Assembly: GCA_916048095.2 (NCBI GenBank)
Contig: OU696594.1
Coordinates: forward strand, 6,543,281-6,607,280
DNA from: Sacculina carcini
Lineage: Eukaryota; Arthropoda; Thecostraca; Sacculinidae
Direction of reading: 5' to 3'
DNA length: 64,000 nucleotides
Position numbers and translations under genes: made by a program. Under the pieces are notes generated by a model. It saw only the letters and a program-made list of their open reading frames with translations, did not search any database and had not been told where the DNA came from. Position 1 is the stretch's first letter. Each line of letters begins with the position of its first letter. Positions 25,087 through 49,300 of this stretch are shown here, piece after piece.

Positions 25087-25341
25087 ATGATTATGGAAGC
25101 GGAACATCGCACACTTCGAGAACGAATTGTGGCCATTTTGAACTCGGTGCTGCCCTCTGGTGACAGTCATGAAAGTCTCAATTTACTGCTTGGCTCACTG
25201 GAGGCGTGCTTGAAAAATGACCGCGCCGTTTTTATCGTCACAAATGCGCCATCCAGTGTCAATATTGAGCACTGTCGCAATTTCACTGTCTGGGTCATCT
25301 GGCAACTATGTGTGGTGTTTGCTCATACCACCGACGACAAG
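25087..25341 (+). CDS. ATR: ATR exon 1
   Basis: Begins at ATG 25,087 with an in-frame TAG immediately upstream; a second ATG two codons on is equally possible. 85 codons. The part ESLNLLLGSLEACLKN through NFTVWVIWQL aligns with the first helices of vertebrate ATR. The donor CAAG|GTTGGT is non-standard and is the first unit of a tandem array. Confidence 0.85.
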
Positions 25342-28300
25342 GTTGGTCCATTTTCACAACAACCTTGTCTTTTAATACCACCGACGACAAGGTTTGTCTA
25401 TTTTAATAACAACCTTGTCTTTTAATACCACCGACGACAAGGTTGGTCCATTTTCACAACAACCTTGTCTTTTAATGTTTGTCTTGTCTATTTTCATAAC
25501 AACCTTGTCTTTTAATACCACCGACGACAAGGTTTGTCTATTTTAATAACAACCTTGTCTTTTAATACCACCGACGACAAGGTTGGTCCATTTTCATAAC
25601 AACCTTGTCTTTTAATGTTTGTCTTGTCTATTTTCATAACAACCTTGTCTTTTAATACCACCGACGACAAAGTTTGTCTATCTTCATAAAAACCTTGTCT
25701 TTTTTATTCTTGTCTTTTATATTTTCTATATTTTTTGCTGTGGCTGTTGATTTGTAGAGTTTGTGATTTTATTGTGTTTTAATTTTTATTGTGGTTTTAT
25801 TTACATACTGTTTCTCTGTTGTATTATTTATTGTTTGTCTTTTACGCCAGTCGAGTTATTATTATTTTTCATATTGGAGTGAAAATAATTAATATGAAAA
25901 ATAACTTTTTGCACATTCCATATCGTATTTTATGTTTTTACTTATTGAGTCATATTTAACTGAATTTGCCTATAATTAATAATAATAATAATGTCTTATA
26001 CACAGACGCTGGGTCGGGTTCGGGCATTCATCGTGTCTCTGTTGAGAACGCTGCAGTCACGTGACCCCAGTCTGCTCAATGGGCCAGTGTTAAGTGTATG
26101 GATGACGTCACTGCAACAGCTGACTGTCGAGGGTTGTCGGCAAGTTGAGCCGCCAGTCTTGTTTGAGCTGCCGACAAGAGCGGTCGTGAGTTCCTCCGGG
26201 CGAGTGCTTGAATCAGTGCTTCTCAACCTGTGTGTGTGTGGTAAATTCCCGCCTGTCTGGTGGGAAATGGAAGAGTTTTCAAGTGGGAAGCTAAAGGTCG
26301 ATCAGAACAGGACAACTATGTGTGTGTTTTAATCAATTAAAGTTAGTTTATTTTTGTTTCTAATAACCTCTAATGACATTTACTTTGATGTAACAACTGA
26401 ATTTCTAGCGCTGTTGTGTGGAAAATGAAGATGAGATGGCTGAATTAAGAAATGGGAAATCAGTGAGAGAAAAAGGTTGAAAACCACTGACTTAATTGAC
26501 ACTTGGACTTTATTGAAATTATTTATTAATTTATTAATTTAATTTATTTTAAAGACTTTATTGGAAGAGCAACAGGGAACAATTCACGTGTTTTCAAGGT
26601 TTTATTGAACAATGCAAAATGAAACATTTATATTTTATTTTCTCGGCTTAAACACTATATAATGATATATTTATTTATATATTTTTTGCTTTGTTTTTGA
26701 GCGAACTATATTATTTGCAGTAACGAGAAAAATGTATATTGAAAAAGTCTGAATTATATGATTTTTCCTAGTGTTTTTGTGTGTCTGATATAATATGTTC
26801 TATCAAAACTATTGTGGTTGTTTAATAGTTGTTGTTGTTGTTGTTCTGAACAGCCTTTACTGCCGGAGCAGCGTTGGTTAATGATACAGTTATTGTTGTG
26901 TGATTCTGTGTTGGCGGTGTTTATGCCCTCAAATGCCCAGTTATCTCGTATTATTCATTGTTTGACCAACATCCGTCCTCCATCACAATATTACAGGTGT
27001 TTAATGCGATATATTTGTGTCTTATTCCACTAGTCTTTCACTGTGTTATTACTTCATTTATTATTATCATTCTTTTTCTATCTGTTCTCTCTTTCTCTTC
27101 TACTGTATTTTGTTATCTGTTATTACTTCAAGTATTATCATCATTCTCTTTCTATCTGTTCTCTCTTTCTCTTCTACTGTATTTTGTTATCTGTTATTAC
27201 TTCAAGTATTATCATTCTGTTTCTATCTGTTCTCTCTTTCTCTTCTACTGTATTTTGTTCTCTTTTTCCTTCTCATTCTCTTTTTCTCCATTCTGATCGA
27301 CTTTCTTTATTTTTGCGTCTCATTTTCTCTCTCTTTCTTTCTGTTTAATCTCGCGTACAGCTGAGTGTTTTGTCTTATTTATTTGCTCTCTCCCTCATTC
27401 GCACATATTTCACACAACTAACAGACTAACAGACTTATTTCACCTGGTTTTATATTGCAGAAGTTCAGATATATGTATTGTCATAACAAACACACATAAT
27501 AAACACACATTTCTACTATTAGCTAGACAATAGATTGATAATGTTCTGTTAACGAGATAAATCTCCTATAGTTATACATCAATAATTTGACTAAAAATTT
27601 TGGTTCTAAAACAGAATTCAGTTTTCACTGTCACACACTAATACATACTTGCACATACACTCAATCACACACACGTACACACACACACACACACTCAATC
27701 ACACACACACACACACACACACACACATACACACACACACACACACACACACACTCAATCACACACACACACACACACACACACACACACACACACATAC
27801 AAGCACACACACACACACACACACACACACACTCAATCACACACACACATACACTCAATCACACTCAATCACACACACACACACACACACTCAATCACAC
27901 ACATACACACAATCACACACACGCATACACACACACTCAATCACACACACGCATACACACACACTCAATCACACACTCAATCACACACACACACACACAC
28001 ACACATACACTCAATCACATACACTCAATCACACTCAATCACACACGCACATACACTCAATCACACACACACACACACACACACACACACACACACACAC
28101 ACACACACACACTCTCAATCATACACTCTATCACACACACACATACACACAATCACACACACGCATACATACACACACACACACACACACACACACACAT
28201 ACACACACACAGACACAAACACTCTCAATCATACACTCTATCACACACACATACTCTATCACACACACACACACACACACACACACACACTCGCACACAC

Positions 28301-46300: not shown

Positions 46301-49300
46301 ACTAACACTAACACACACTAATACTAACACTAACACTAACACACTAACACTAACACACTAACACTAACACACTAACACTAACACACTAACACTCACACAC
46401 TAACATTATCACACTAACACTATGTCAACTGCTAGGTGTGTGTGACACACTAACACTATCACTAGCACTATCACACTAACACTAACACGCACTAACACTA
46501 ACACTAACACACTAACACTCACACACTAACACTCACACACTAACACTCACACACTAACATTATCACACTAACACTATGTCAACTGCTAGGTGTGTGTGAC
46601 ACACTAACACTAACACACACTAACACACTAACACTAACACGCACTAACACTAACACTAACACTAACACACTAACACTAACACACTAACACTCACACACTA
46701 ACACTCACACACTAACACTAACACACACTAACACACACTAACACACTAACACTAACATTAACACTAACACACACTAACACACACTAACACACTAACACTA
46801 ACATTAACACGCACTAACACTAACACTAACACACTAACACTATCACACTAACACTAACACTAACACTCACACACTAACACTCACACACTAACATTATCAC
46901 ACTAACACTATGTCAAGTGCTAGGTGTGTGTGACACACTAACACTAACACTAACACACACTAACACACTAACACTAACACGCACTAACACTAACACTAAC
47001 ACTAACACACTAACACTAACACACTAACACTCACACACTAACACTCACACACTAACACTAACACTAACACACACTAACACACACTAACACACACTAACAC
47101 TAACACTAACACGCACTAACACTAACACTAACACACTAACACTATCACACTAACACTAACACTAACACACACCAACACTAACACACACTAACACTAACAC
47201 ACACTAACACTAACACACACTAATACTAACACACACTAACACTAACACACACACACACACACACACACACACACACACACACACACACACACACACACAC
47301 ACACACAAACACACACAGACACACAGAAAATCAGAACAGAACAGAAAATCATGACGTTAACCGCATGAGTTTAAATATGAGACGCATTAATGAATGTCAT
47401 AAAGGATATCACTATGAAATGATAAATTGGTCATTATCAGAAACCATTGAGAAACATTTTCCAAAAAGTAACGAACGCTTACTACACAAAAGAACACTAA
47501 CACTTGGGGTTCGTGGTTCAAATCCCGGCGGAGGAGAATTTCATCGGGCGAATTCTATAATCCAACAGTCCCTGTCCACCCAGCAGTAAATGATGGTACC
47601 AGATATCAGTCATGTGTTGTGTCATGCATTCTGGGGAGGTGGCCCTCTCTAATACGTCTTACGTTCTTGTGGCGTCATAGCGTGGAGATGGTCGGTTCTG
47701 CGGTGGTAGCGAGCTGCACGGGGCACATCTGTGTGTGTTCATAAGCTTCCACTTCTTCCCGTGTAGCAGCTGTCACTTGAGACTTGTAACCTTTAACCTA
47801 TATTTTTAACCTTATCAGTGATGACACCGGACAGCTGACCGATGGCGCCATTATCGTCTCATCCAGTTGAACACACAAATGGGCGTAAATCCTGGAGGGG
47901 TATGGGGATAATATACCCCCGACAAATTCGCTGGGGTATGAACATGCAATCCCCCGATAATTCTGCTGGGTTCAGTTCATTGTGTATATTGTCATCAAAA
48001 TCGGCATAGCAAAAATTTAACAATACACGAAATTTAAAAATTATATTCCTGTGTGAAGAATTATACTTCACGCAATATACTTTTCATTGGGGTATGTGTG
48101 TTGTAACTTAATAGGCTGAAAATAATTGTGGATGTCACGAAATTGACCAACTGAGTCAACTTTGAACACTAATGCATGATGACTGTCATCCCCCCGAGCC
48201 TCGATACAATTCTACACCCCTGAACACACACACACACACACACACACACACACACACACACACACACACACACACACACACACACACACACACACACACA
48301 CACACACACACAAGTGGATACGGAGGAGTGGCAATAATCCTGAGAGAAACGATACCACACGAAATCATCAATGTCTCCACGAAGCGTCCTCATAGCACTG
48401 TGGACTCCGTGGTGCAGTTGTTAGCACACCCGCCTCACAAGCGGGAGGTCCGTGGTTCGAAACCCGGCGGAGCAGAATTTCATTGGGCGAATTCTACAAT
48501 CCCACAGCCCCTGTCAACCCAGCAGTAAATGGTACCAGATATCAGTCATGAGTTGTGCCATGCATTCTGGGGAGGTGGCCCTCTCTTATACGTCTTACGT
48601 CCTTGTGGCGCCATAGCGTGGAGAGGGTCGGTTCTGCGGTGGCAGCGAGCTGCACGGGGCACGCCTGTGTGTTCATAAGCTTCGGCTTCTTCCCGTGTAG
48701 CAGCTGTCACTTAGGCATTTAACCATTTAACCATAGCAGCATCGAGATACTCTGGGAGAAAGCGATCTTTAAAGATCTCACATTTGTCATAGGTAGTGTA
48801 TACAGACCGCCTGTATACACTGTGGGACAAGTGCATGATGATCTGGACGACTTGGAAGACCAGCTGCACGAACTAATCTGCGAGTACAAACATGCGAAAA
48901 TCATAATTGGAGGCGACTTGAACGCATGTATGTTGAAAGCACAATTGCCAGCGAACAAACTCTGCCGAATGATGAATAACTACAAACTGACAATCTGCAA
49001 CACGACCGAGCCAACATACGAACTGTCTGATAGTCTGCTCGACATTGTCGCTGTGAATAGCGATCTGAATATCGTCAAGACACACGTTCAGCGCTGCCAC
49101 TATGGGACACCACATCATTTTACCATGGTGCATATCAAACACAATGCCACGACAGCGGACGTAAACACGAAAAACACAAGGCTATATCGAAATATCAACG
49201 TACCGCTATGTGTAGCTCTTCTTCGACAATCAAACTGGATTCCATTTTATTCGAGCAAGTCCATCGAGGCGAAATACGAATATTTCGTTAAAATTTTCAG

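Follow-up and report, generated by a model that had tools for sequence, protein, structure and literature searches.

About 10% of zebrafish introns carry (GT)n ahead of the 3' splice site together with a matching (AC)n just past the 5' splice site (PMC6093180). PUF60 has a high affinity for UG-rich motifs, and UG-rich tracts are described ahead of some of the human exons that it activates (PMC6093180, PMC7969005). Cases of intron gain by duplication include ATP2A1 and a multiple duplication of 24 bp in fission yeast, as presented in PMC4974935 and PMC3443670. In this study, we analyzed a stretch of 64,000 nucleotides of Sacculina carcini (assembly GCA_916048095.2, contig OU696594.1, positions 6,543,281 to 6,607,280 of the forward strand; hereafter the window), which carries the gene ATR on its plus strand from position 25087 onward. 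An earlier note on this DNA had described tandem repeats built on exon-intron junctions of ATR and argued that splice sites are repeated too often there for random microsatellite growth. We found the arrays themselves as described, but the junction is a trough of repeat density on its intron side, and sense-strand TG runs crowd ahead of acceptors. These results are probably best accounted for by two processes, namely, tolerated duplications at junction edges and T/G-rich acceptor tracts that act as a splicing signal.

The TG runs were counted in 62 acceptors and 63 donors curated by hand in ten genes of the same genome (264 Mb on 43 contigs), namely ATR, seven myosins, and two PI3K-like kinases. 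Within the last 60 nt of the intron, (TG) runs of at least 8 nt occur at 33 of the 62 acceptors, versus 2 for (AC) runs (binomial, 4e-8). At 200 to 260 nt upstream of the exon, TG runs are found at 5 of 59 sites (Fisher, 6e-8 against the last 60 nt), and the first 60 nt of the intron holds one at 7 of 63 donors. The end of the run lies a median of 11 nt from the exon (range, 2 to 51), and positions -25 to -5 of these acceptors consist of T at 0.49, G at 0.40, and C at 0.04. Given this orientation and position, the array sits where the polypyrimidine tract should be, and the best reading of the sequence is that (UG)n arrays, where present, would serve as that tract. Acceptor TG runs are seen in nine of the ten genes. 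They mark 8 of 13 acceptors in ATR (exons 4, 5, 6, 11, 12, 13, 14, and 15), 3 of 4 in the kinase gene PI20, and 2 of 2 in PI8; among the myosins, the counts are 6/8 (C19), 4/6 (C21), 2/4 (C4), 2/3 (C30), 4/8 (C36), and 2/10 (C23), and the exception is C35 (0/4), a relative of the C23 myosin. The acceptors of ATR exons 3 and 7 have (TTG)n in place of a TG run. A literature search, with most subscription papers outside its reach, recognized no report in which TG or UG repeats form the standard tract of a whole animal genome.

As at the human exons activated by PUF60, a UG-rich tract thus lies upstream of the 3' splice site, and PUF60-like frames are present here. The human cases described are PUF60-regulated exons, whereas here about half of the sampled acceptors are concerned and the role of PUF60 is putative. 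One PUF60-like coding frame, on C31, scores above the curated cut-off and another, on C16, below it; U2AF2-like proteins have two matches above the cut-off, each in one open frame and covering positions 61 to 510 and 66 to 510 of 510. The U2AF2-like pair is arranged head-to-head at C26:1032223-1036658, and the weaker PUF60-like match at C16:7533077-7534285 lies in an open frame of 1685 aa. Sense-strand T/G microsatellites thus lie where a polypyrimidine tract is expected, and in our account they would act as one, probably read by PUF60 together with U2AF2. Selection for a T/G-rich tract, combined with slippage of that tract, would then bring arrays to within a few bases of exons. The binding of UG tracts by PUF60 and U2AF2 in this animal, like the duplication mechanism and its tolerance discussed below, is an inference.

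The introns analyzed here resemble those of zebrafish in carrying (GT)n ahead of the 3' splice site. If they worked in the zebrafish manner, repeats at the two ends would pair and draw the splice sites close to each other, which would fit both the (TG)n at acceptors and intron 13 of ATR, where the DNA is AC-rich at the donor end and TG-rich at the acceptor end. However, an AC run occurs within 150 nt of the 5' end in 3 of 30 introns with a 3' TG run versus 3 of 24 introns without one. We therefore rejected bracketing by AC and GT repeats as a general rule and hold it to be highly improbable as an explanation. Unlike in zebrafish, (AC)n is not the rule at donors, the proportion of acceptors concerned is 33/62 rather than about 10% of introns, and U2AF2-like genes are present. 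A different possibility, which we regard as speculative and rather doubtful, is that recognition of the 3' splice site depends largely on (UG)n, read by two U2AF2-like and one or two PUF60-like proteins with no (AC)n partner, and that AG/GT copies in the arrays of ATR introns 1, 5, and 13 (the slash marks the exon-intron boundary) are occasionally used as extra or recursive sites. If that were true, splicing strength would be set by a fast-slipping repeat beside many exons. If about half of the 3' splice sites do rest on (UG)n, variation in repeat length, usually deemed neutral intron noise, would directly tune splicing, and this animal would offer a natural test of the extent to which a polypyrimidine tract can depart from pyrimidines.

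The other of our two processes concerns the junction copies of ATR. The identity of the gene rests on exons 9 to 15, which, joined as read from the DNA, match human ATR at an E value of 3e-14 in phmmer; an earlier, less clean query gave 2e-8. One alignment to human ATR spans exons 10, 11, 12, and 13 into 14 and is ungapped at the 13-14 join (LLG/PVYLSPVSRKMM here versus LMG/PKHVSSVRVKMM in human ATR). Because it crosses that join without a gap, the exon 13 donor is fixed at 43938. Exons 1 and 2 yield an alignment of 0.3 bits only, and exon 8, of 48 nt, is optional in frame and unproven. Exon numbers are those of the earlier note, and the features are listed in Table 1.

Each of the junction arrays named in the earlier note is present. 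The donor of exon 1 was said to lie in six copies of a 50-bp unit, and donor copies do stand at 25342, 25392, 25442, 25532, 25582, and 25672; four of the five extra copies repeat the final 17 bases of the exon exactly, and the fifth has one change, at -1. The exon 13 donor, reported as the original plus five copies within a 3.4-kb array, is confirmed by 26-mer matches, with extra copies that start at 45614, 46130, 46424, 46578, and 46912 and have their donor junctions at 45626, 46142, 46436, 46590, and 46924. Two of these 26-mers have one mismatch, and shuffles lead one to expect none. Copy-led segments of 154 to 516 bp are 91 to 97% identical in local alignments, which suggests that larger units spread and carried the copies with them; since the end of exon 13 aligns with human ATR, copying most likely went from exon to array. 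On the acceptor side, the three copies of a unit of about 90 bp claimed for exon 9 are borne out, with upstream copies at -92 and -179; the nearer shares 7 exon bases, and the one at -179 lacks the AG. The several copies claimed for the exon 10 acceptor are likewise present in an array that reaches into the exon, where copies overlap about 5 exon bases. The arrays said to abut exons 5, 6, and 15 also exist. One directly adjoins the end of exon 5 (0 nt), and others stop 13 nt short of exon 5, 8 nt short of exon 6, and 15 nt short of exon 15. Long arrays are prone to assembly error, and mis-assembly of repeats could in principle have made such copies. Yet the copies differ by point changes, the window contains no N, and other genes, located on different contigs, show comparable cases, so we consider this explanation very unlikely.

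These arrays do not mean that splice sites are preferred as repeat units. We searched the adjacent intron for copies of the 20-mer centred on each junction, with at most 4 mismatches. In ATR, only the donors of exons 1 and 13 and the acceptors of exons 9 and 10 have such copies (4 of 27 sites), and outside ATR, 1 of 98 sites does. The latter sites are 49 acceptors and 49 donors in nine genes, taken from profile-found myosin-head exons and PI3K-type exons; the sampled sites were drawn from 44 of 82 myosin matches and 7 of 22 PI3K matches. The first acceptor and two donors of the C30 myosin and the first PI8 acceptor, all of uncertain place, were left out of the counts, as was ATR exon 8, except in the array-distance count of ATR. 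The lone copy outside ATR is at a myosin donor, where 93 bp, 52 nt of them exonic, are perfectly repeated at a spacing of 112 bp, and it looks like a plain recent duplication. Intronic 20-mers are copied far more often than junction 20-mers. At ATR donors, the junction 20-mer is copied at 2 of 14 sites versus 7 of 14 for the 20-mer 40 nt into the intron, and at ATR acceptors the counts are 2 of 13 versus 9 of 13; at the other donors they are 1 of 49 versus 14 of 49, and at the other acceptors 0 of 49 versus 22 of 49. In ATR as a whole, 15% of junctions are copied versus 50 to 69% of 20-mers 40 to 150 nt into the intron, and for 20-mers 40 to 80 nt into introns the range across ATR and the other genes is 22 to 69%. 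Placing the ATR exon 2 donor at 26186, its best position, leaves the junction copies at 4/27 and raises the donor TG count from 6 to 7 of 63. In addition, coding exon 14 has its own tandem repeat, eight in-frame EVTR/EVTS units at about 58606 to 58710, and thus tandem expansion is not confined to splice sites. Between the two stretches that align to human ATR around this repeat, there are 50 residues here versus 10 in the human protein.

As a check, the earlier note had suggested comparing the distances from arrays to splice sites with shuffled intron positions across the genome. Run on ATR and the nine other genes, this comparison shows an excess of arrays near splice sites, but it lies mainly at acceptors. 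In ATR, an array lies within 20 nt of 13 of 28 intron ends versus 2.8 expected when blocks are placed within introns. With whole-block placement, the excess holds at all distances tried, whereas circular shifts of the repeat mask give an excess at 10, 20, and 40 nt and none at 0 nt (4/28; 5.5 expected) or 5 nt (5/28; 5.7 expected). All shuffles that include ATR, like the repeat-coverage profile around splice sites, have its exon 2 donor at 26233-26235 instead of 26186; in that profile and in the block and circular comparison of the 28 intron ends, the position used does not fall on a GT. Outside ATR, an array is found within 10 nt of the acceptor in 18 of 41 introns (1.4 expected) and within 10 nt of the donor in 3 of 41 (1.4 expected; P = 0.15), so that outside ATR the crowding of arrays at exon edges is mainly an acceptor effect. 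Some neighbouring myosin exon pairs may hide an undetected exon, which blurs both these counts and those of TG and AC runs. Tandem repeats make up 31% of ATR introns versus 26% in the other genes, and 51% versus 23% within 300 nt of exons. A further set of twenty 10-kb regions, placed at round coordinates of four contigs, is not a random sample and served only for repeat coverage and for background codon and dinucleotide counts. Six of these regions contain N, and one that is wholly a single tandem array (L019) was excluded from both the codon and the dinucleotide counts. Ab initio coding scores for the set have edges that are not trustworthy and played no part in the splice-site counts.

It is conceivable, although we think it rather unlikely, that splice sites seed the arrays, with the GT of donors and the T/G tracts of acceptors serving as proto-repeats at which slippage starts. 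The excess of arrays near acceptors and the orientation of the TG runs speak for seeding, as do the GT runs that start at the donors of exons 5 and 15. The suggestion in the earlier note that slippage begins at exon edges is, however, at odds with the myosin donors: their repeat coverage is at its minimum next to the junction (5% at 1 to 10 nt) and rises to a roughly flat 22 to 28% from 20 to 200 nt. Moreover, the units of the four ATR junction arrays, about 6 to 90 bp long, are unrelated and are not expansions of GT.

The copies might instead be functional, with the downstream AG/GT acting as a decoy donor or as a recursive (ratchet) site through which the intron is removed in steps. AG/GT is indeed kept in 9 of the 10 extra donors (ACAAG/GTTTGT or GTTGGT at exon 1 and TAG/GTGTGT at exon 13), and the intron 13 array holds 344 copies of CTAAC, a branch-point-like motif. 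One exon 1 copy reads AA/GT, though, and CTAAC is simply part of the repeat unit. A recursive site would pair an intronic AG/GT with a branch point and a pyrimidine tract ahead of it; AG/GT copies and CTAAC motifs are present, and the exon 13 copies show no evident pyrimidine tract. The predicted fold of the first exon 1 unit places the donor within a perfect 10-bp hairpin, and the other copies are mostly paired too. We rejected sequestration in a hairpin as a mark of the first donor, as the copies are about equally paired (unpaired, 0.12 to 0.35 versus 0.21 for the original), and this similarity also tells against a special role for the copies. So does their presence at a single site outside ATR. 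Silent redundancy, which the earlier note had considered, is unlikely because the second exon 1 donor, at 25392, adds 50 nt and shifts the frame, and later copies lie past in-frame stops (at 25423 in intron 1 and just after 43984 in intron 13). Intron 5, 89% of which is array, does have phases that agree with a splice site within an array. Four donor-acceptor pairs were tried for exons 5 and 6, and only donor 30029 with exon start 30629 and donor 30019 with exon start 30613 are in frame. Some array copies may therefore be functional, and this is our one hint of spliced array copies; a sequence error would also explain the frame. Overall, we judge a functional role for the junction copies to be improbable.

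The best explanation of the junction copies is that they are by-products with no required role. The introns sampled are rich in tandem arrays, and these extend up to the exon edge. A tandem duplication with its outer breakpoint a few bases inside an exon would keep one complete exon end with its splice site, and the extra copies would be intronic; at acceptors, the mirror case would apply. Such a duplication would be tolerated because one intact exon end and splice site remain. Duplications of this kind would survive and could then be amplified further by the arrays, with no preference for splice sites needed. The ends of ATR exon 1 (17 nt) and exon 13 (13 nt) and of one myosin exon (52 nt) would have been copied by this route; over all cases, the exonic part of the copies is 5, 7, 13, 17, or 52 nt. 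Like the duplications of ATP2A1 and fission yeast, these are tandem copies of an exon end with AGGT, and the fission yeast intron spans several copies. Unlike in those cases, introns 1 and 13 of ATR do not end inside the copies but run on for about 300 nt and about 11 kb past the arrays to exons 2 (26006) and 14 (58516), and no intron is shown to arise from copies. The junction copies, which are of lesser importance than the TG tracts, suggest that duplications straddling a splice site are tolerated; such duplications have been proposed as the raw material for intron gain by duplication.

Several observations weigh against our two-process account. Junction copies are more common in ATR than in the other genes (4/27 versus 1/98; Fisher, 0.008), and an array lies within 10 nt of 5 of 13 ATR donors (0.8 expected). 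This excess of junction copies and close donor arrays could reflect a cause specific to the gene, or chance combined with the choice of this gene by the earlier reader. Donors outside ATR are also weakly enriched for arrays within 20 nt (7/41 versus 2.6 expected; P = 0.01), and both in-frame joins of exons 5 and 6 use a splice site inside an array. On the acceptor side, 29 of the 62 sites have no TG run, which means that a UG tract is not needed everywhere, and their tract (T, 0.44; G, 0.24; C, 0.15) is close to the intron background (T, 0.40; G, 0.18; C, 0.16). Finally, seven of the ten genes are myosin paralogues picked for their dense exon matches, and the sites were curated by hand from the DNA of a single genome.

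Table 1. Positions in the window of ATR exons, tandem arrays, and other elements
Feature	Position	Strand	Basis or remark
ATR exon 1	25087..25341	+	starts at in-frame ATG; repeat unit begins with its last 17 nt
50-bp minisatellite, exon 1 end and donor six times	25325..25703	+	TRF
ATR exon 2	26006..26185	+	donor GTGAGT best placed at 26186, phase 0
Element with hAT-like inverted ends, intron 2 (presumed hAT)	26214..26489	+	left part repeated in genome
ATR exon 4	28614..28851	+	TG run ahead of acceptor
122-bp-unit array ending 13 nt ahead of exon 5	29391..29655	+	tandem-repeat scan
ATR exon 5	29669..30018	+	GT-rich array from its donor on
GT-rich arrays of intron 5, including 31-bp units with AAG/GTGTAT	30019..30620	+	tandem-repeat scan
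ATR exon 6	30629..30939	+	start set by nearest CAG acceptor
Array of units of about 90 bp, 2.4 copies, last copy with exon 9 acceptor (exon start 33123)	32919..33129	+	tandem-repeat scan
GATTGTAG-type array ending in exon 10 acceptor (exon start 38781)	38464..38785	+	tandem-repeat scan
GTGGTGTA array, 985 bp, intron 12, into tRNA-derived short interspersed nuclear element (SINE) body (from about 41673)	40688..41672	+	tandem-repeat scan
ATR exon 13	43813..43937	+	aligned to human ATR over 13-14 join
ACACTA array, intron 13, five copies of last 13 nt of exon 13 and donor	43947..47325 (approx.)	+	tandem-repeat scan, copy search
Acceptor-side TG tract ahead of exon 14 (example)	58397..58515	+	sequence
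ATR exon 14	58516..58879	+	in-frame coding tandem repeat inside
ATR exon 15	60057..60252	+	GT run from donor; weak alignment, 5.3 bits

Other elements in the window and the genome were observed in passing. The element in intron 2, which we take to be of hAT type, begins 28 nt past the probable donor of exon 2 and contains a TG run that resembles a donor. A frame resembling a hAT-type transposase (labelled by eye) lies in intron 9, at 36045-37850, and two frames resembling reverse transcriptases of long interspersed nuclear elements (also by eye) lie in intron 13, at 48723-57770. The GTGGTGTA array of intron 12 looks like an amplified SINE head, as it runs directly into the SINE body; a second copy of the SINE, at about 48403-48475, is called as tRNA-Val by ARAGORN. 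After exon 15, an 18-bp tandem repeat of TGATAGCTTGTAGTAATA type (by eye) occupies 60620-64000, that is, at least 3.4 kb, and runs off the window. In an mTOR-like gene (labelled by eye) on the reverse strand of L038, a 25-bp array begins at the donor after ATGGAG, and 7 recurrences of the donor 12-mer GTGGGTAACTGG fall within 500 nt. Protein kinase matches cluster, in long open frames, at C20:3262236-3456307, C24:7686419-7776248, C15:7158645-7313723, and C31:15647-86543; in the C20 cluster, a kinase domain recurs every 1386 bp, in open frames of up to 2897 aa.

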